From NCBI GenBank assembly GCA_019056595.1, contig CP036163.1, positions 1,860,001 to 1,924,000 of the forward strand: 64,000 nucleotides of DNA, written 5' to 3'. This DNA is from Pectobacterium atrosepticum. Its GTDB lineage: Bacteria; Pseudomonadota; Gammaproteobacteria; Enterobacterales; Enterobacteriaceae. Both the position numbers and the translations under genes were made by a program. Each line of letters opens with the position of its first letter. The first letter of the stretch is position 1. Below are positions 52,642-64,000 of this stretch, one piece after another. Below the pieces are notes generated by a model that was given only the letters and a program-made list of their open reading frames with translations, was not told the DNA's origin and did no database searches.

Positions 52642-53048
52642 TTACCATTCATCACAAAAAGCAATATCTTTCACATACTTATTGGGACCCATCCAGGATA
52701 TTTTTTGACATACTAAATAACCTCTATCATCCAGACTATACGATATATACATTGATAAAAAAAAACTAACCACTGCGCCAAATATAGCTATAACAGCCAA
52801 TACATTAGCTAGTTTATTATTCATCCTCGCTATTTCATTTTTCATTGCGGAATGAAATGCCAAGTATGAAAAATAGAACAATAGTGGCACTGCAAATACT
52901 AAAACACCAACTTTCCAAGAAAAAATGATTACATTACTTAATTTAACGAAAGCTAAATACCACTTAAAGAAAACCAGCACCCCCAGCAGGACATGAGGAA
53001 AACCAACGTCGCAAATGCACCAACTAATGGCCTATTTATCTTAACCAC
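52642..53048 (-). pseudogene. DUF1240-type immunity gene copy with a frameshift
   Basis: A close relative of the neighbouring gene at 53100-53507. From a GTG at 53048 (AAGGAAG upstream) the frame reads VVKINRPLVGAFATLVFLMS then CWGCWFSLSGI and a stop. From about 52970 the next frame continues KWYLAFVKLSNVIIFSWKVG and so on to a normal C-terminus, KISWMGPNKYVKDIAFCDEW at 52642. The shift is at about 52965-52974. It appears to be a tandem duplicate in decay, unless it is a sequencing error. Confidence 0.72.
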
Positions 53049-53099
53049 GATTGATTCTTCCTTGGTAGGAAAATAAAAACCACTAGATATTCTTGTTAT

Positions 53100-53507
53100 T
53101 TACCATTCATCACAGAGAGCAATGTTTTTCACATACTTATTGGGATCCATCCAAGATACTTTAGGACATAACTCATAACCATAAGCTCTAAAATTATAAG
53201 ATATGTAGAAAGATGAGAACAAACTAATTATAGTACCAGCTATCATTACTATAAATAGCCCCCCTCCAAATTTATTATTTATTTTCGCCACTTCATTATT
53301 TATTGCAGAATAAAAAAACAAATATGAAAAATAGAATAGCAAAGGAGAACCAAATACCATTAACCCGACTCTCCATGAAAAAACTATCGTATCATTTAAC
53401 TGTAAAATATCCAAATATGAATTAAAAGAAAACCAACCAGTAAAGCATGTCAATAGAAAAATAAAAACTGCAAATGCACCAGTTAATGGTCTATTTACCT
53501 TAACCAC
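53100..53507 (-). CDS. DUF1240-type membrane protein, probable immunity protein
   Basis: A protein of about 135 residues with three hydrophobic helices (GAFAVFIFLLTCFTGWFSF, SWRVGLMVFGSPLLFYFSYL, FIVMIAGTIISLFSSFYI) and the C-terminal CPKVSWMDPNKYVKNIALCD. I place it in the DUF1240 family of small membrane proteins. I chose the GTG at 53507 with GGGGGAGG seven bases upstream, which overlaps the previous gene by 8 bp and aligns with the start of the duplicate copy. Close coupling to the effector-like gene suggests it protects the cell from that protein. The role is inferred from context. Confidence 0.75.
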   Translation of the reverse strand: MVKVNRPLTGAFAVFIFLLTCFTGWFSFNSYLDILQLNDTIVFSWRVGLMVFGSPLLFYFSYLFFYSAINNEVAKINNKFGGGLFIVMIAGTIISLFSSFYISYNFRAYGYELCPKVSWMDPNKYVKNIALCDEW

Positions 53508-54360
53508 GGCTGTACCTCCCCCAGGCATGAAAGAATTGATCGGGATGGTATGGTGTATATTGTTTTTTATGTGATTTTAAATTTTTTATTATCGTCTCAC
53601 TTATTTTATATTTATTATCTAGCCAGAGTAATGAAAAACTGACAGCAACCCCAAGTAAAAATATACCACCAGCAATAATAATCACACTGCCTCCTGTGGC
53701 TACCATTACCGAGGTAGCTGCCGCTTTCGCACCCCAGGCAACTCCAATAGATATCGCTAATTTTGCAGCATCCATCGTTAAATTAACAAAAAAATCGGTT
53801 AGTGCGTATTCATCTTTCAACATCAACTCAATGGCTCGATAAGCACCTGAAAACAAAATACAGAATCTTGCCCCTGCCGCAATACCACTTTCAATTCCTT
53901 TTGTACCTATCCCTATATCTAGTATTTTTTGGTTACTAACTAAATATCTGGTGGCATCTAAATACTTTCTTACCCCCGGATATCCAGATAATTTTATGTA
54001 TTTACTGCCATTTTTCCCGACATATTCCGTTGCCGTTACCCCAAACCCTTTAATTTCCATCACGATTCTGCTAACAGACACCGCTTCTGCAATATTCCCA
54101 GCAAACGATGAGACAGGATCGGTACAGCCAAACATGGCTGTTTTCCACGATTGATTAGGATTAGGTGTGCATAACGTTTGTAAGAAATACGTCGCTTCCT
54201 GCGCAGTCAATATGGCATGAATGTTATCGTTATTTATTTCATTGAGTTGAGCATGTAATTTCTGATAGTTAATATCTGCATGCTGTTTTTTAAAATCAAG
54301 ATGATCTTCTAACCGATAGTCATCATCAACAAGCGTTTTTAAAACCGGATCGTATTTCAC
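53500..54360 (-). CDS. Putative secreted antibacterial effector with hydrophobic C-terminus
   Basis: A 286-residue protein with no signal peptide. The N-terminal third is soluble. The rest resembles the C-terminal toxin domain found at the end of several PAAR or Hcp-linked type VI effectors: KYIKLSGYPGVRKYLDATRY, RFCILFSGAYRAIELMLKDE, a long hydrophobic pair of segments (about residues 205-250) and YHPDQFFHAWGRYSRG at the end. Such proteins are thought to insert in the inner membrane. It lies upstream of, and overlaps, a DUF1240-type immunity gene, close to an orphan hcp. The activity is inference. Confidence 0.6.
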   Translation of the reverse strand: MKYDPVLKTLVDDDYRLEDHLDFKKQHADINYQKLHAQLNEINNDNIHAILTAQEATYFLQTLCTPNPNQSWKTAMFGCTDPVSSFAGNIAEAVSVSRIVMEIKGFGVTATEYVGKNGSKYIKLSGYPGVRKYLDATRYLVSNQKILDIGIGTKGIESGIAAGARFCILFSGAYRAIELMLKDEYALTDFFVNLTMDAAKLAISIGVAWGAKAAATSVMVATGGSVIIIAGGIFLLGVAVSFSLLWLDNKYKISETIIKNLKSHKKQYTPYHPDQFFHAWGRYSRG

Positions 54361-54614: not shown

Positions 54615-56863
54615 TGAATAGGCTGCCTGTACGGCAGTGAACGGGTTGCCTCGGCCTGAACAGCGATCTCGCGTGTTTCTAAGCTACCTGTACGGCAGTG
54701 AACTTGAAATTAGTGACGTGAGCAGAATCGTAAACTTTCTAAGCTGCCTGTACGGCAGTGAACCGATACTCGGATACGCTCCCAGACCTTATCGATTTCT
54801 AAGCTGCCTGTGCGGCAGTGAACAACACGCCGCGCGATTTTGTCCACAATGCGCATTTCTAAGCTGCCTGTGCGGCAGTGAACTGTCGAGCGCTGATTCG
54901 TCGGTCACTGGATACTTTCTAAGCTGCCTGTGCGGCAGTGAACTCCATAGTCCTCGGAAGGGACGACGATGTGACTTTCTAAGCTGCCTGTACGGCAGTG
55001 AACCATTAATTGACGTCTCTCTATCAATTATCTGTTTTCTAAGCTGCCTGTACGGCAGTGAACCCGAGCCTGTATTACAGGTGGTTATGGCGACATTTCT
55101 AAGCTGCCTGTACGGCAGTGAACACGCTTGATATTGCTTATGGCGTGTTAGTTCATTTCTAAGCTGCCTGTACGGCAGTGAACGATCGGCAAAGATAATC
55201 AGGCACTCATCACCGTTTCTAAGCTGCCTGTACGGCAGTGAACTGAATGAGCCGGCCAATCTATATCACTACACTTTTCTAAGCTGCCTGTACTGCAGTG
55301 AACGGCGCGTCAGTGAAGTGGATGTATCCGTGCCATTTCTAAGCTGCCTGTGTGGCAGTGAACGCGGGGGCTAATGTGTCTGAGGCTGGTAGATCTTTCT
55401 AAGCTGCCTGTGCGGCAGTGAACCCAGACCGCAGCAACTACCAGTTAGCTCAACATTTCTAAGCTGCCTGTACGGCAGTGAACGAGCAATTCGCGCATGA
55501 GTTCGCGTCTACGCTTTTCTAAGCTGCCTGTACGGCAGTGAACGCGTTAGGCTCGTCGGTGTAGATCAACTTTCCTTTCTAAGCTGCCTGTACGGCAGTG
55601 AACTCTTTGTAATCACCTGTACGGCTGGCCCACACTTTCTAAGCTGCCTGTACGGCAGTGAACTTACGGACGCAATCTATGTGCCGTGTAACGATTTTCT
55701 AAGCTGCCTGTACGGCAGTGAACCTGTCGCAGTATTTGACCCACGACGTGATGCTTTTCTAAGCTGCCTGTACGGCAGTGAACAGCTTGCGTTGCTCGTC
55801 TGTCAAATTGCGGGTTTTCTAAGCTGCCTGTACGGCAGTGAACAGGCGATGGTGTCGTGGTCTGACCCTGCAAACTTTCTAAGCTGCCTGTACGGCAGTG
55901 AACAACCGTCGCTCGCTGGCCACTGTACGATTCGCTTTCTAAGCTGCCTGTACGGCAGTGAACACTCTGTTATTCCCCAACTGGCGTATGCCGAGTTTCT
56001 AAGCTGCCTGTACGGCAGTGAACAACCGTCGCTCGCTGGCCACTGTACGATTCGCTTTCTAAGCTGCCTGTACGGCAGTGAACACTCTGTTATTCCCCAA
56101 CTGGCGTATGCCGAGTTTCTAAGCTGCCTGTACGGCAGTGAACCCTGACGGCAACGCCGACGCCGATCCGACACATTTCTAAGCTGCCTGTACGGCAGTG
56201 AACGCATCCGTCCAGACCGTATCGATAGTCTCTGCTTTCTAAGCTGCCTGTACGGCAGTGAACCCCTGACTGGCTGGCAATCTCCTGTGTCGCCATTTCT
56301 AAGCTGCCTGTACGGCAGTGAACATTTCACGGAGGGACAACACTCCGGCACAGTATTTCTAAGCTGCCTGTACGGCAGTGAACGGCTTGCTGCCCGGCGG
56401 GGCGAAAAATTGGCATTTCTAAGCTGCCTGTACGGCAGTGAACACGCCATTAATCAGTTATCAGGCTCAAATTCTTTTCTAAGCTGCCTGTACGGCAGTG
56501 AACCATCGCATTTGGATGCGTGCGATGATATGTGCTTTCTAAGCTGCCTGTACGGCAGTGAACCACCTCGCCTGGGAACGTGACGTTATTAATCTTTTCT
56601 AAGCTGCCTGTACGGCAGTGAACGAGGTGTGCCGACACCGATATTCACTAATCGGTTTCTAAGCTGCCTGTACGGCAGTGAACAAAATCCGCACGGATGC
56701 ACTGAAAAAGGAAATTTTCTAAGCTGCCTGTACGGCAGTGAACCGCCCCGATTGACCGGCGATGTCTTCCAGGCTTTTCTAAGCTGCCTGTACGGCAGTG
56801 AACTGGGCTAAACGTTTTGAAGTTCGTGACGGACTTTTCTAAGCTGCCTGTACGGCAGTGAAC
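54615..56863 (-). CRISPR. Type I-F CRISPR array, 37 repeats plus a degenerate terminal repeat
   Basis: Repeats of 28 bp start at 54676 and recur every 60 bp to 56836-56863 (37 copies), separated by 32-bp spacers. A 38th copy at 54615-54642 keeps the hairpin but has lost the last seven bases of the crRNA-sense repeat; its spacer is 33 bp, so there are 37 spacers. In crRNA sense (minus strand) the repeat reads GTTCACTGCCGTACAGGCAG then CTTAGAAA, with the CTGCC/GGCAG stem cut by Cas6f (Csy4). The leader is at the right, next to cas1, so transcription runs leftward. Variant repeats cluster at the distal, older end: 54676, 54796, 54856, 54916, 55276, 55336 and 55396. Two adjacent spacers are duplicated (55904-55995 and 56024-56115). 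Confidence 0.99.
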
Positions 56864-57158
56864 TGTAGCCCGATCACTCTAACGATTTGTTTTATTAGCA
56901 GCAATTGCCATTTTCTTCGTAAAAACCCTTTTTTTAACCCTATCTGTAACTCATTGATTTTTAATCCTGTGAAATAGGCCAAATAAAAAGGGTCTGCGTT
57001 TAGGTAATATTTTTTGCGGTCATCATCTTTCACATGCAACTGTGATAGTCTGATTTTCATCAGTTTTCTGAAGATTATATTTTTCCTTATCAAATAGTTA
57101 GCCTGCGATTTATTAAGCTGGCGTCATGGCTATTATCTATTACGGAAGAAAATACATT
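56864..57158. promoter_or_regulatory. CRISPR leader and cas1 promoter region with two IHF sites
   Basis: This AT-rich region separates the leftward array from rightward cas1. Two perfect matches to the IHF consensus (WATCAA-N4-TTR) occur: 56947-56959 on the minus strand, 84 bp from the first repeat, and 57088-57100 on the plus strand. IHF bending is known to guide spacer integration in I-E and I-F systems. A dyad TCACA-N6-TGTGA lies at 57030-57045, and a TATATT at 57076-57081 could be a -10 box for cas1. Confidence 0.7.
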
Positions 57159-58139
57159 ATGGATAACGCCTTTAGCCCTTCGGATTTAAAAACCATTCTG
57201 CATTCCAAACGCGCCAATGTTTATTACCTCCAACATTGCCGCATTCTCGTCAACGGTGGCCGTGTCGAATATGTCACGGAGGAAGGAAACCAGTCTCTGT
57301 ACTGGAATATTCCCATCGCCAATACCAGTGTTGTGATGTTGGGAACGGGTACCTCCGTAACTCAAGCCGCCATGCGAGAGTTCGCCAGAGCGGGTGTGAT
57401 GATTGGTTTTTGTGGCGGCGGCGGTACGCCGCTGTTTGCGGCCAATGAAGCTGAAGTCGCGGTATCCTGGCTATCGCCACAGAGCGAATATCGACCAACC
57501 GAGTATTTGCAGGACTGGGTCAGCTTTTGGTTCGATGATGAGAAAAGGCTGGCCGCCGCCATCGCCTTCCAACAAGTGCGAATAGCGCAAATTCGTCAGC
57601 ACTGGCTGGGTTCTCGTCTGTTCCGTGAATCGCGCTTTACCTTTAAGTCCGATCATCTTCAGGCGCTTTTGGATCGTTATGAAAAAGGATTAACAGACTG
57701 CCGCACCAGCAATGACGTGCTGGTACAGGAAGCGATGATGACCAAAGCCCTGTACAAACTGGCCGCCAATACCGTGAGCTATGGTGACTTTACCCGCGCC
57801 AAACGCGGCGGCGGTACCGATCTGGCGAACCGCTTTCTCGATCACGGCAACTATCTGGCTTATGGGCTGGCCGCCGTCTCAACGTGGGTGCTGGGCCTGC
57901 CGCACGGATTAGCGGTGTTACACGGTAAAACTCGCCGTGGCGGGCTGGTATTCGACGTCGCCGATTTAATTAAAGATGCGCTAGTGCTGCCGCAGGCTTT
58001 TATTGCCGCGATGGAAGGCGAAGATGAGCAAGAATTTCGTCAGCGCTGCCTGACCGCATTTCAACAATCCGAAGCGCTGGATGTGATGATCGGCAGCTTG
58101 CAGGATGTTGCCAGCAAACTGAGTCAGGTAGCGCGATGA
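57159..58139 (+). CDS. cas1: Type I-F CRISPR integrase Cas1
   Basis: Cas1 is the integrase of CRISPR adaptation; with Cas2-3 it captures prespacers and inserts them at the leader end. The 326-residue protein is of the I-F type (cas1f). The metal-binding active site is seen as E191 (LVQEAMMTKALYKL), H255 (GLAVLHGKT) and D269 (FDVADLIKDALV). I chose the ATG at 57159 (MDNAFSPSDLKTILHSKRAN), the family's normal start, with GGAAG upstream; an ATG at 57126 is in frame but less likely. Its stop overlaps the cas2-3 start (ATGA). Confidence 0.97.
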   Translation: MDNAFSPSDLKTILHSKRANVYYLQHCRILVNGGRVEYVTEEGNQSLYWNIPIANTSVVMLGTGTSVTQAAMREFARAGVMIGFCGGGGTPLFAANEAEVAVSWLSPQSEYRPTEYLQDWVSFWFDDEKRLAAAIAFQQVRIAQIRQHWLGSRLFRESRFTFKSDHLQALLDRYEKGLTDCRTSNDVLVQEAMMTKALYKLAANTVSYGDFTRAKRGGGTDLANRFLDHGNYLAYGLAAVSTWVLGLPHGLAVLHGKTRRGGLVFDVADLIKDALVLPQAFIAAMEGEDEQEFRQRCLTAFQQSEALDVMIGSLQDVASKLSQVAR

Positions 58140-61100
58140 ACATTCTGCTGATTTCAGAATGCAATAAGCGTGCGCTGGTCGAAACTCGCCGGATACTGGA
58201 TCAGTTTGCTGAACGCAAAGGCGAGCGCAGTTGGCAAACCGCCATCACGCAGGAAGGGCTGAACACGCTGCGCAAGCTGCTGCGCAAAACGGCACGTCGC
58301 AATACGGCAGTGGCCTGCCACTGGGTTCGTAGCACAAACCACACCGAGCTGTTGTGGGTCGTCGGCAATCTGCGACGTTTTAATGCGCAGGGAAGTGTCC
58401 CCACCAATACCACCAGTCGGGATGTTCTGCGCACGAAAGATGAAAATCCGTGGCACAGCGCAGAAGTATTCAGCCTACTGGCCGCCATTGCTGGGTTATT
58501 TCACGATGTTGGCAAAGCCAATATGCTATTTCAAGCTGGCCTAAGCGGTACAGGCCCACGCAGCCAACCCTATCGACATGAATGGGTATCACTGCGACTT
58601 TTTCAGGCCTTTGTCGGTGAGCAGGACGATAAAGCCTGGCTAACCACGCTCAGCACGATTACCTCAGAAGCAGAAGTCGCGCTGCTGGCGACGCTGCAAC
58701 AGGATAAACCGACGTTCAGCGATAGTCCATTCCGTACCTTGCCGCCGCTGGCGCAAACCATCGCTTGGCTGATTGTTTCTCACCATCGGCTGCCCGTATT
58801 TAACAAATCGACAGAGCTTGCACCAAACAGCCGCCCTCCCCAGCTCGACTATGCGGAAACATGGTTAACCGACCATCTTTCTCCGCAGTGGAATGCACTC
58901 AACCATTGTCAGACCAATTGTTTACCGTCCGAGCGAGAGCAAAACTGGCAGTTCCCTAACGGGACACCGCTGCGCAGTACGGTCTGGCGCGAGAAGGCAC
59001 GAAAATTTGCGGGTCGCGCACTGAAGCTGCCCTCATTTATGCATTTCAGCCAGTTAGAGCAACGGTTGACCGTGCATCTGGCACGTCTCGCGCTAATGCT
59101 GGCAGACCATCACTACTCGGCAGGAGCGGCAACGGTTGGCTGGCAGGACATCACTTATCCTGTGTGGGCCAATACCGATCGCAAGACTGGGGAATATAAG
59201 CAGAGGCTGGATGAACACTGCGTCGGCGTTGGGCAAAATGCCTTACTGCTGGGGCGAAGCCTGCCGCACCTGCGTGACACGCTCCCCGCCATCACTCGCC
59301 ACAAAGGGTTCCGGCAACGTAGCACGCACCCGCGCTTTCGCTGGCAAGATCGCGCGTTCGACCTTGCCTGTTCCATTCGTGATGCCAGCAAGCAGCACGG
59401 CTTCTTCGGCATAAACATGGCATCGACAGGCAGGGGAAAAACGTTCGCTAATGCACGAATTATGTATGGCCTCTCGGATGAATCCATCGGCTGCCGCTTC
59501 TCCGTAGCATTGGGGTTACGCACGCTGACGCTGCAAACCGGCGATGCACTACGGCAGCGTTTGAAGCTAGACGAAGACGACTTAGCGGTGCTGATTGGTT
59601 CACAGGCGGTGCAAGATCTCCATGAAATGCGGCAGGAAAATGAGGCACGCCAACAAAACACGCCGCAAACTGGCAGTGAATCCGCCGACCCGCTGTTCTC
59701 TGAACATCAGTATGTTCGTTACGATGGCTCGCTGGATGATGGTCGGCTAAAAGCATGGCTGGAACGCAGCCCAACTCTGCATCAATTACTGAGTGCACCG
59801 GTGCTGATCACCACCATCGATCACCTGATGCCCGCCACGGAAGGGTTGCGCGGCGGCCACCAAATAGCCCCAATGCTACGGCTGTTAACCTCCGATCTAG
59901 TACTCGATGAACCGGATGATTTTGGTCTGGAGGATCTTCCTGCACTTTGTCGACTGGTTAACTGGGCGGGAATGCTGGGCTCACGCGTGCTGCTGTCGTC
60001 CGCCACGCTGCCGCCTGCGTTAATCCGTGCGTTGTTCGATGCCTATCTTGATGGCCGCGCCGCCTGGCAACAGGCTTACGGTACGCCAAATACGCCACTG
60101 AACGTGTGCTGTGGCTGGTTTGATGAATTTGACTGTCAGCATGAGCAATATGGCGACGTGAAAGATTTCATGGTCAGCCACGATGCGTTCGTTCATCAAC
60201 GGCTGAAAAATCTGACGAAAGATGAACTCCCGCTACGCTTCGCCACTATCGTACCGGTAAGCAGCTCCAGCAAAAACAAAGATGATGTTCATCTGGCCGT
60301 CGCGCAGGCGATTCATCCACGGATGTTCGATTTACATTCTCAGCACCACCAACAGCATGAAAACGGGAAAACCGTCTCGCTGGGGTTGGTCAGAATGGCA
60401 AACATCGATCCGCTGGTTGCCATCGCTCGACAGTTGATCGCTATCCCCTCTCCACCGGATACCTGCATTCATTACTGCATTTATCACAGCCAACACCCAC
60501 TAGCGATGCGCTCCCACATTGAACAGCGGCTTGATGCCGCGCTGATGCGTAACGATATCAATGCGCTGTGGCAAGTGGAGGAAATTCGTCAGGCGATAGA
60601 AAACTCGCCGCAACAGCATCACGTCTTTGTTGTTCTGGCAACCTCAGTCGCTGAGGTGGGTCGCGATCATGATTACGACTGGGCGATTGTAGAGCCTAGC
60701 TCGATGCGTTCGCTGATCCAGCTTGCCGGACGAATATTGCGCCACCGGCAGGATAAGCAGTATGTGCCTAAAGCCCCCAATATCTATCTGCTTAGCCACA
60801 ACATTCGAGCGCTTAGAGGGAAAGACATCGCGTACTGTAAACCTGGCTTTGAGTCGCAGGATGACAGTCTGGATACACACGATCTCCACCAACTATTGCA
60901 GGAAAAAGAGTACCGCCACCTCAGCGCCGCACCGCGTATCGTGCAGCCAACATCGTTTGCAAAGCCACTTTCACTGGTGGCGTTAGAGCATGCCGTGTTG
61001 GGGAAAACGCTGCTTGGCCTCAAAAATCAAAAACTCGATGACCTGAAACGCCCTCCCGCTGCCTTTTGGTGGCGCGCGCACCCGCATTGGAATGGCGAAC

Positions 61101-61432
61101 TACAGCGGCGTACACCATTTCGTCAATCAGCGAAAGATGAAGCGTACTACCTGTGGATCGCCGATGACGATGAAGAACCGGTTTTCATGGTGCAGGACGA
61201 TGGCCCGAGTGGCTGGAAGCAAAGCGATATTGCTCGCCCCGTCACGCTGGACATGGCAGAAGGCGTCAGTGCCTGGATAGAACAGGATTACCACGCCTTG
61301 TACCAACGGCTGGCGGAAGAAAAGCAGTGGGAACTGAGCTGGGTGAGCGCCCGCTTCGGCGAAATTCGTCTGCGGGAAGAAGAGGACTGGTACTGGCACC
61401 CGCTGTTAGGGGTGTTTGGCGCACTCAGTTGA
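58136..61432 (+). CDS. cas3: Fused Cas2-Cas3 nuclease-helicase of type I-F
   Basis: A 1098-residue Cas2-3 fusion, the hallmark of type I-F. Residues 1-95 form the Cas2-like part (MNILLISECNKRALVETRRI). The HD nuclease follows with LFHDVGKANM (H123, D124). The SF2 helicase has Walker A STGRGKT near residue 430 and the DExD-type box VLDEPDDFG near 590, and motif VI is seen as IQLAGRILRHRQ. It degrades invader DNA at targets bound by the Csy complex and also partners Cas1 in spacer acquisition. It starts within the cas1 stop. A strong 9-bp hairpin spans its stop codon. Confidence 0.97.
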   Translation: MNILLISECNKRALVETRRILDQFAERKGERSWQTAITQEGLNTLRKLLRKTARRNTAVACHWVRSTNHTELLWVVGNLRRFNAQGSVPTNTTSRDVLRTKDENPWHSAEVFSLLAAIAGLFHDVGKANMLFQAGLSGTGPRSQPYRHEWVSLRLFQAFVGEQDDKAWLTTLSTITSEAEVALLATLQQDKPTFSDSPFRTLPPLAQTIAWLIVSHHRLPVFNKSTELAPNSRPPQLDYAETWLTDHLSPQWNALNHCQTNCLPSEREQNWQFPNGTPLRSTVWREKARKFAGRALKLPSFMHFSQLEQRLTVHLARLALMLADHHYSAGAATVGWQDITYPVWANTDRKTGEYKQRLDEHCVGVGQNALLLGRSLPHLRDTLPAITRHKGFRQRSTHPRFRWQDRAFDLACSIRDASKQHGFFGINMASTGRGKTFANARIMYGLSDESIGCRFSVALGLRTLTLQTGDALRQRLKLDEDDLAVLIGSQAVQDLHEMRQENEARQQNTPQTGSESADPLFSEHQYVRYDGSLDDGRLKAWLERSPTLHQLLSAPVLITTIDHLMPATEGLRGGHQIAPMLRLLTSDLVLDEPDDFGLEDLPALCRLVNWAGMLGSRVLLSSATLPPALIRALFDAYLDGRAAWQQAYGTPNTPLNVCCGWFDEFDCQHEQYGDVKDFMVSHDAFVHQRLKNLTKDELPLRFATIVPVSSSSKNKDDVHLAVAQAIHPRMFDLHSQHHQQHENGKTVSLGLVRMANIDPLVAIARQLIAIPSPPDTCIHYCIYHSQHPLAMRSHIEQRLDAALMRNDINALWQVEEIRQAIENSPQQHHVFVVLATSVAEVGRDHDYDWAIVEPSSMRSLIQLAGRILRHRQDKQYVPKAPNIYLLSHNIRALRGKDIAYCKPGFESQDDSLDTHDLHQLLQEKEYRHLSAAPRIVQPTSFAKPLSLVALEHAVLGKTLLGLKNQKLDDLKRPPAAFWWRAHPHWNGELQRRTPFRQSAKDEAYYLWIADDDEEPVFMVQDDGPSGWKQSDIARPVTLDMAEGVSAWIEQDYHALYQRLAEEKQWELSWVSARFGEIRLREEEDWYWHPLLGVFGALS

Positions 61433-61439
61433 GTGCGCC
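61418..61439. terminator. GC-rich hairpin spanning the cas2-3 stop codon
   Basis: GGCGCACTC and GAGTGCGCC form a perfect 9-bp stem with a 4-nt AGTT loop over the cas2-3 stop codon. No T-run follows on either strand. It could attenuate read-through from cas2-3 into csy1, or form the 3' end of the minus-strand RNA described next. Confidence 0.55.
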
Positions 61440-61501
61440 GCTGCCTGTACGGCAGTTTACTTCATTTAGCCTACTTCTAAGCAGCCTATCCGGCTGTGTA
61501 G
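61433..61501 (-). ncRNA. Candidate crRNA-like guide: two degenerate CRISPR repeats around a 13-nt pseudo-spacer
   Basis: Read on the minus strand, 61501-61474 is a repeat-like unit (21 of 28 bases identical). Its stem CAGCC/GGCTG keeps pairing through a compensatory change, and its handle CTTAGAAG differs from the true crRNA handle by one base. A 13-nt pseudo-spacer, TAGGCTAAATGAA (61473-61461), follows. The second repeat-like unit (61460-61433) has the intact Cas6f stem CTGCC-GTACA-GGCAG. A minus-strand promoter fits just upstream: TTGAAA (61528-61533), 17 bp, TACTAT (61505-61510), with a start near 61498, at the first repeat. The layout matches CreA/CreR RNAs reported at other CRISPR loci. 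That this RNA is made and used by the Csy complex is inference. Confidence 0.65.
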
Positions 61502-61554
61502 GCGATAGTAATTTGAGGAGAATTGTATTTCAAACTTAATATTTAAATACCATT

Positions 61555-61583
61555 TTGCCTAGGATAAAAAAGTGTACTATTCT
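61555..61583 (+). promoter_or_regulatory. Promoter for the small ORF and csy1, overlapping a predicted guide target
   Basis: TTGCCT (61555-61560), a 17-bp spacer and TATTCT (61578-61583) form a plausible sigma-70 promoter that would start about 25 bp before the small ORF. The CC at 61558-61559 is a type I-F PAM. The bases after it, TAGGATAAA, match the pseudo-spacer seed TAGGCTAAA at eight of nine positions. A Csy complex bound here would cover the promoter. Confidence 0.6.
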
Positions 61584-61616
61584 CCTTATTGAACACCATC
61601 AAGAGGGGAAATGCTC

Positions 61617-61766
61617 ATGAAGCAGAGTCAAAGAAAAAAAACGGTGGTTATAGTCGTGCTCCTTCTTCTATCACCACCGTCAGTAACTTTTAATTTTTAT
61701 ATTGATATAGCTAATCAACCACAGCCATCAGTATCGTTGAGCGTATTGAAGACAAATCTTATATGA
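61617..61766 (+). CDS. Small hydrophobic protein inside the cas operon, candidate toxin
   Basis: A 49-codon ORF with a strong GAGGGG about 9 nt upstream of the ATG at 61617 (an ATG at 61611 is too close to that site). The product is basic at the N-terminus (MKQSQRKKT), then one hydrophobic segment VVIVVLLLLSPPSVTFNFYI, then a short polar tail ending LKTNLI. This is the form of many type I toxins, but no Hok-type motif is visible. It lies between cas2-3 and csy1, with its stop 31 bp before csy1. Its promoter carries the target of the adjacent guide-like RNA, so it is a candidate CreT-like toxin. It could instead be an untranslated leader. Confidence 0.5.
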   Translation: MKQSQRKKTVVIVVLLLLSPPSVTFNFYIDIANQPQPSVSLSVLKTNLI

Positions 61767-61794
61767 GATAACCCATTCAATCATTAGGGAGTAA

Positions 61795-64000
<2,206 letters not shown>

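Follow-up and report, generated by a model that had tools for sequence, protein, structure and literature searches.

A candidate CreTA-like guide-RNA module between cas2-3 and csy1 of the type I-F CRISPR-Cas operon of Pectobacterium atrosepticum

The DNA analysed here, called the window, comprises 64,000 nucleotides of Pectobacterium atrosepticum (GenBank assembly GCA_019056595.1, contig CP036163.1, positions 1,860,001 to 1,924,000 of the forward strand) and contains a type I-F operon of the genes associated with clustered regularly interspaced short palindromic repeats (CRISPR). Its cas2-3 and csy1 genes are separated by a gap of 365 nt, exactly the length of the published 365-bp region (PMC4499141). 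On the minus strand of this gap two repeat-like units, psiR1 and psiR2, flank a psi-spacer of 13 nt, and on the plus strand a small open reading frame (sORF) precedes csy1. A preliminary description, made from the sequence alone, had interpreted the two units as a mini-CRISPR that could yield a regulatory guide similar to a CRISPR RNA (crRNA). Our analysis supports such a guide and points to a module resembling CreTA, in which the guide would hold down a putative membrane-peptide toxin.

Both units share 21 of 28 positions with the repeat of the canonical array and retain all five stem pairs. By the standard of a full stem and at least 20 identities they are the sole units outside the array in 64 kb, and none of 2,000 dinucleotide shuffles of the gap yielded a single unit of this kind. 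The preliminary description had further seen a 5-bp Cas6f stem in each unit, identical to the array stem in one and changed by a compensated U-A to A-U swap in the other, and an intact handle in the handle-supplying unit; psiR2, psiR1 and the retained CTTAGAAG bear this out. Rfam CRISPR-DR4 matches both units below its gathering score (E 0.0026 at 61474-61501, E 0.19 at 61440-61455). An RNA from 61501 to 61418 folds into both psi stems and a third hairpin with a z of -4.1. If Cas6f cuts behind both stems, which we take to be its cut site, the predicted mature guide RNA is 41 nt long (61481-61441). A sub-threshold Rfam match to an animal microRNA was taken as chance.

The promoter TTGAAA-17-TACTAT, from which the guide was proposed to start, is present, and both hexamers are retained while the 17-nt spacer varies in two relatives, locus L014 and Brenneria L021. 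By itself it does not rise above chance level (1 found, 1.2 expected).

Behind the handle CTTAGAAG the psi-spacer starts with TAGGCTAAATG, and the minus strand at 61563-61551 reads CC-TAGGCAAAATG. The first 11 nt match at every position but 6, next to the I-F protospacer-adjacent motif (PAM) CC. The gap as scanned has 20 CC-flanked sites; the target at 61551-61561 was the best of them and was equalled by 15 of 200,000 shuffled spacers; the pattern CCTAGGCNAAATG has one occurrence in the 5.04-Mb genome. A plus-strand site, CC-TAGGATAAA, which had first been picked by eye, came second in the scan with 7/10 against 10/10 for the minus-strand site and was discarded. The full seed match beside a CC PAM upstream of csy1 lends support to the crRNA-like guide. 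Guided repression itself is very probable. The preliminary description had noted neither this target nor the sORF nor the hairpin at 61418-61439.

Table 1. Features of the type I-F locus in the window, in order of position (L014 and L021 are loci of the comparative set)
Feature	Position	Strand	Remarks
Canonical I-F array	54619..56830 (approximate)	-	Source of the reference repeat; crRNA strand inferred from repeat orientation
cas1	57126-58139		First gene of the I-F operon; open reading frame
cas2-3	58136..61432	+	Open reading frame; tblastn anchor in relatives; stop codon inside hairpin 61418-61439
Hairpin	61418..61439	-	9-bp arms; spans the cas2-3 stop codon, directly behind psiR2; from the fold
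psiR2	61460-61433	-	Stem CTGCC-GTACA-GGCAG, the exact array stem; 3' handle lost
psi-spacer	61473-61461	-	13 nt, between psiR1 and psiR2
psiR1	61501-61474	-	Compensated stem CAGCC/GGCTG; handle CTTAGAAG retained
Predicted guide-RNA promoter	61533-61505	-	TTGAAA-17-TACTAT; promoter scan; hexamers conserved in L014 and L021
Target	61542..61563	-	PAM CC at 61563-61562; seed match 61561-61551, 10/10 without position 6
Putative sORF/csy1 promoter	61555..61583	+	TTGCCT-17-TATTCT, or the conserved TACTAT at 61575-61580; by eye; overlapped by the target
sORF, candidate creT	61617..61766	+	49 aa, or 51 aa if started at the in-frame ATG at 61611
csy1	61798..63129	+	Open reading frame; starts 31 nt behind the sORF

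Relatives were collected by csy1 searches, which found the gene in 14 of 25 genomes of the genus and in 60 of 392 genomes of the family and gave 47 named loci. Fifty of these 60 were taken in, the 10 most distant being left out, and with the named records this gave 112 loci in total. Three of them (L034, L036 and L087) had no cas3 match upstream and were dropped; the other 109 contained 86 distinct cas3-csy1 gaps. Of these gaps 43 do not exceed 57 nt, 7 measure 82-166 nt, 35 measure 200-2000 nt and a single one reaches 5,412 nt. In the group of 82-166 nt the lengths of L015 and L051 are inflated by a csy1 match that begins inside the gene. The screen for psi pairs was confined to the 35 gaps of 200-2000 nt, leaving aside those below 200 nt and the gap of 5,412 nt.

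A minus-strand pair, psiR1 with its handle followed by psiR2, was found in 29 of these 35 gaps. PsiR2 starts 0-17 nt behind the cas3 stop in 27 of the 29, the exceptions being L039 and L043. All 29 psi-spacers have a CC-PAM match in their own gap, with a seed of 10/10 in 21, 9 in 7 and 8 in one; the mean of 9.7 compares with an average of 5.7 for shuffled psi-spacers that keep their first two bases, the highest of 300 shuffle means being 6.2. Locus by locus, 0-2.7% of the shuffles equal the score of the target. When spacers were swapped between loci, 34 of 812 combinations reached 9, and just 4 of these crossed lineages as we grouped them. Most psi-spacers begin with TA, and most targets accordingly read CC-TA.

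The positions of the mismatches were counted in 28 loci, L043 being left out, and the profile was the same whether or not position 6 was used in choosing the site. There were no mismatches at positions 1-4, 7 and 11, one at position 5 and 14 at position 6; positions 8-10 had 3, 1 and 2, position 12 had 22, and positions 13-18 had 5, 11, 15, 11, 9 and 18. Thus guide position 12 looks free and position 6 half free. Type I effectors do not read every sixth base, and the psi guides resemble this rule. Acinetobacter CreA leaves positions 6, 11 and 18 without a pairing partner (PMC10097628). When E. coli-like loci are compared, guide and target change alike at position 5 (L101 versus L110; L112 by eye). 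By our count the set holds about 21 unrelated psi-spacer sequences, and as many natural guide-target pairs are available for testing the guide rule.

The preliminary description had taken compensatory change and a retained handle as signs of function rather than decay. Covariation was assessed solely on psiR1 units whose loop measures 5 nt, of which 19 are distinct, L014 being merged with the identical row of the window. With L107 included, which has 4 of 5 pairs, 94 of 95 cells are paired and 16 are changed on both sides, whereas shuffles gave 84% paired cells with 3.9 double changes and slid partners at most 45%. Two of the five measures of covariation were less clear: the number of pairs with double changes was matched in 56 of 500 shuffles and that of further pair types in 498 of 500. 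Variation was least at the two outermost pairs. Because the psi units had been chosen partly by stem pairing, psiR1 was located a second time by handle and target alone. It was found in 29 of the 35 gaps, comprising 28 of the earlier ones (all except L043) and L041, where the newly located unit is doubtful. A full 5-bp stem with a loop of 3-7 nt was present in 25 of these 29, as against 2.7% of shuffled upstream bases. Covariation in psiR1 is thus positive, and the argument for function holds with targets in 29 of 29 loci and stems kept in 25 of 29 without selection for pairing.

These results bear on two simple explanations of the element. A decaying relic of the array, or chance, would fit the lost handle of psiR2 and a guide promoter at chance level; with no unit in 2,000 shuffles, a target in every pair locus and stems retained irrespective of how they were selected, we rejected both, as far as sequence can tell, as very improbable. 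Just as improbable is a solitary repeat of the phage type (Racr) or another mobile remnant, to which a repeat-like unit outside an array might otherwise be assigned: Racr is a single repeat on a phage or plasmid, while here two units lie within the cas operons of many genera, and blastn of 61380-61850 against 50,697 phage records gave no match at E 0.01.

The gap form of E. coli occurs in 237 of 5,426 complete E. coli genomes, in 183 at an identity of at least 99%, in 17 at 95-99% and in 37 at 60-80%. None of the 25 matches listed carried an annotated feature under it. Four E. coli records were inspected for guide and target, two with a script (L090 and L091) and two by eye (L112 and L113).

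A Shine-Dalgarno sequence precedes the sORF of the window by 8 nt (by eye), and the encoded peptide combines a basic N-terminus with one hydrophobic stretch. A hydrophobic ORF of at least 18 aa lies between target and csy1 in 23 of the 29 loci. In 14 of 20 tested regions an ORF combined a length of at least 45 aa with a transmembrane-like segment and a Shine-Dalgarno sequence, with 0.02 expected from mononucleotide shuffles; this control covered regions of at least 180 nt and so does not extend to the E. coli type with its short hydrophobic ORFs. The ratio of nonsynonymous to synonymous substitution rates was 0.20-0.38 across five pairs, of which three are formed by the window, L014 and L021, and Fisher tests in four pairs gave p values of 1.3e-4 (window versus L021), 0.027, 0.0067 and 0.086. 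Judged by these substitutions, comparison with L014 and L021 shows the sORF of the window to be under purifying selection. The window peptide is 84% identical to that of L014 and 57% to that of L021, and in many peptides across the lineages the helix is followed by lysine-proline and by a hydrophobic tail of short length.

Pfam gave no family for the window sORF at E up to 1 and sub-threshold matches for two sORFs of relatives; the window peptide has no second match in its own genome. A search of the 392 genomes with the peptide of L005 gave matches in 17 genomes at E of at most 0.1. Four of them, below 1e-5, all lie just before csy1, and that of genome G088 (E 0.017) is also beside csy1; the other 12 weak matches were taken as chance. 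Peptides of type I toxin-antitoxin systems such as Hok and TisB are hydrophobic and about 50 aa long, and their antitoxins pair with the toxin mRNA. The sORF resembles them in size and hydrophobicity, whereas its guide, which lies outside the ORF, would act by bringing a protein complex to DNA. A hydrophobic peptide under selection suggests that the putatively repressed gene is toxic, and a toxin role of the peptide appears somewhat more probable than not.

The same architecture in the same slot has been described by Wang et al. (2023) for I-F loci of Acinetobacter with a 33-bp RNA toxin, and a dozen homologs with the same mini-ORF are named there (PMC10097628). In WCHA45, LoGeW2-3 and ANC3789 the cas3-csy1 slot measures about 400 bp, two psi-repeats lie on the opposite strand, the psi-spacer partly matches a CC-PAM site and the mini-ORF follows the target (PMC10097628); our scan recovered LoGeW2-3 as L089. 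Two traits of CreTA are found in the window, repeat-like units around a psi-spacer within a cas operon and a psi-spacer with a partial match to a PAM-flanked site near a putative toxin promoter. The differences are that creT of Acinetobacter is a 33-bp RNA-toxin ORF (PMC10097628) and the psiR2 handle is kept in L089, whereas the window has a 49-aa ORF under purifying selection, a psiR2 without handle and a psi-spacer of 13 nt. Alternatively, an RNA toxin could occupy the position of the sORF, as in WCHA45, with the peptide being incidental. Acinetobacter offers the precedent, since the slot and the arrangement are the same and there the RNA of the mini-ORF is toxic and the peptide is not (PMC10097628). 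In the window, synonymous changes per site exceed nonsynonymous ones, length and hydrophobicity of the sORF are far above those of shuffles, and a search for the initial 24 nt of the creT ORF from Acinetobacter gives 0 matches at up to 3 mismatches, which leaves no homologous 33-bp creT by this measure. Furthermore, the toxin of Citrobacter I-E requires translation (PMC12055562). We consider an RNA toxin improbable.

This Citrobacter toxin, reported by Basta, Campbell et al. (2025), is translated, repressed by Cascade and encoded between cas3 and casA (PMC12055562). The CreTA of Citrobacter rodentium is like the window in its place between cas3 and the first Cascade gene and in its opposite-strand guide, and differs in being type I-E, with another PAM and a 96-bp ORF for which its authors found no homology (PMC12055562). 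CrePA is similar in that a crRNA-like RNA represses a protein toxin; CreP typically has a KilA-N domain (PMC12737573), unlike the window sORF with its lack of a Pfam family. The preliminary description had supposed that an instance between cas2-3 and csy1 in a Pectobacterium I-F operon may be undescribed. Slot and architecture had in fact been published for Acinetobacter I-F (PMC10097628). Among the matches listed in the open literature, subscription papers and supplements being outside the scope, there was no report of the module in I-F loci of Pectobacterium, Dickeya, Serratia or E. coli and none of a peptide-type creT in I-F.

Taken together, we favor, with a rough probability of 0.57, a CreTA-like module in which guide RNA and Csy complex would repress a putative membrane-peptide toxin and, in one unit with it, csy1-4. 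The minus strand would be transcribed into a short crRNA-like RNA; Cas6f, of which the genome of the window has one open gene, would cut it to about 41 nt, and the Csy complex would take it up. Loaded Csy would then bind the CC-PAM target at 61551-61561 and thereby block a putative promoter upstream of the sORF and csy1. In another species, I-F1 complexes can form with spacers of 14-176 nt, and Cas2/3 is triggered solely by R-loops of full length or longer (PMC7296934). The psi-spacer is one nucleotide below the shortest spacer named there, and by this rule its match would not suffice for the complete R-loop needed to trigger Cas2-3, so that the site would be repressed and left uncut. The peptide, most likely a toxin, would be released upon loss or block of Csy. 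Because the terminator scan found none between the peptide gene and csy1, derepression would raise csy1-4 as well. The immune complex would thus probably keep off a peptide by which the cell might poison itself.

In L004, L009 and L027 a pair of a -35 hexamer, 17 nt and TACTAT adjoins the target (by eye). The authors of a 2015 study on P. atrosepticum considered an additional promoter possible in the 365-bp cas2-3/csy1 region (PMC4499141).

The same guide and target could belong to an autorepressor of the CreR type, which would hold down an internal promoter of csy1-4 and release it when Csy is busy or blocked, the sORF being a co-regulated, non-toxic membrane protein. The target does lie upstream of csy1 with no terminator found between them. 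CreRs are reported in types I-B, I-E and V-A (PMC13131331, PMC12737573), and like them the window has a mini-CRISPR guide with a limited match, here to what may be a cas promoter, whereas they are generally without a toxin gene (PMC13131331, PMC12737573) and the window has a small ORF between target and csy1. Four of the 29 loci (L053, L059, L060 and L062) have guide and target, the latter 12-92 nt before csy1, without a hydrophobic sORF, and guide and target also persist in the main clade of E. coli, whose sORF frame looks disrupted (by eye). In these loci the element seems to be like CreR, and one slot would then hold both kinds. For the window an autorepressor leaves three things unexplained: the selected membrane peptide, the other toxin-antitoxin genes of the cas3-csy1 interval, and remnants in L023 and L031, in which the ORF tail alone is left and guide, promoter and ORF start are gone together (by eye). 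For the window we regard it as the less likely of the two.

Loci with a guide and without an intact peptide gene also weigh against a CreTA-like module, and so do further observations. L103 has a 23-aa hydrophobic ORF, and no psi pair was found there. L043 has the weakest target, the one equalled by 2.7% of its shuffles. Outside L014 and L021 identity to the window peptide falls to 9-30%, the data do not establish a single family for the peptides of the various lineages, and the search of the 392 genomes with the L005 peptide does not recover that of the window. The plus-strand promoter of the window was not found by the consensus scan and is weak. The A-U swap of psiR1 lies on the second stem pair, which is presumably read by Cas6f, and processing of the window guide may be weaker because of it. 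The cas genes of P. atrosepticum are reported to form one mRNA from the cas1 promoter (PMC4499141). Because read-through from there would carry the sORF, it might be translated without derepression, and a strong toxin would need the long mRNA to be silent. The tandem hairpins behind cas2-3 may bear on such silencing. In 19 of 29 psi loci, as against 0 of 40 short-gap loci, the cas3 stop is spanned by an inverted repeat whose arms measure at least 7 bp; no T-run follows hairpin 61418-61439 on either strand in the window. The sequence of the inverted repeat differs between lineages.

Finally, the module is lacking in 9 of the 14 csy1-bearing genomes of the genus. Because close relatives often have the cas genes without the whole gap, the psi element is an accessory module. 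A quick csy1 tree was built from 70 rows, 20 short csy1 stretches and duplicates being left out. On this tree the module and the short gap need 19-21 changes, of which the starred branches force 12-13, and label shuffles averaged 20.3 changes for the module and 23.8 for the short gap; the module is about as scattered as by chance. Sister rows that differ in the module are Serratia grimesii L040 and S. quinivorans L063, L083 and L084, and L044 and L046.

We put forward, tentatively and at less than even odds, that a large and so far unrecognised set of guided switches exists in the I-F loci of Enterobacterales and their relatives, which would silence diverging membrane-peptide toxins (CreTA) and tune csy1-4 (CreR), and that the cas3-csy1 gap is a slot that repeatedly gains and loses addiction modules, namely that of the window, CcdAB and Phd-ParE. 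If the dual switch is true, one RNA would answer an attack on Csy first with more Csy and then, failing that, with killing of the cell. P. atrosepticum serves as a model of I-F CRISPR, and the module offers a testable answer to the open question of a promoter in the 365-bp region (PMC4499141). Deletion of csy or cas6f in such strains could free a csy promoter and, with it, a hidden peptide, a consequence that would matter for reading such mutants.

Other toxin-antitoxin genes were observed in the interval. The cas3-csy1 gap of L104 contains a CcdA and CcdB pair, and no psi pair was found there. In Photorhabdus sp. CRCIA-P01 (L039), Phd and ParE lie upstream of the psi-CRISPR, which follows a second stretch similar to a cas3 end. 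A Phd-like gene is present in L041 by Pfam and in L038 and L042 by likeness; no ParE ORF was listed in these three. In the canonical array of the window, two adjacent spacers at 55869-56108 are duplicated as a block with 98% identity over 120 nt. Upstream of the array, at 52642-53508, direct repeats 458-459 nt apart are 74-76% identical and possibly represent a tandemly duplicated gene.
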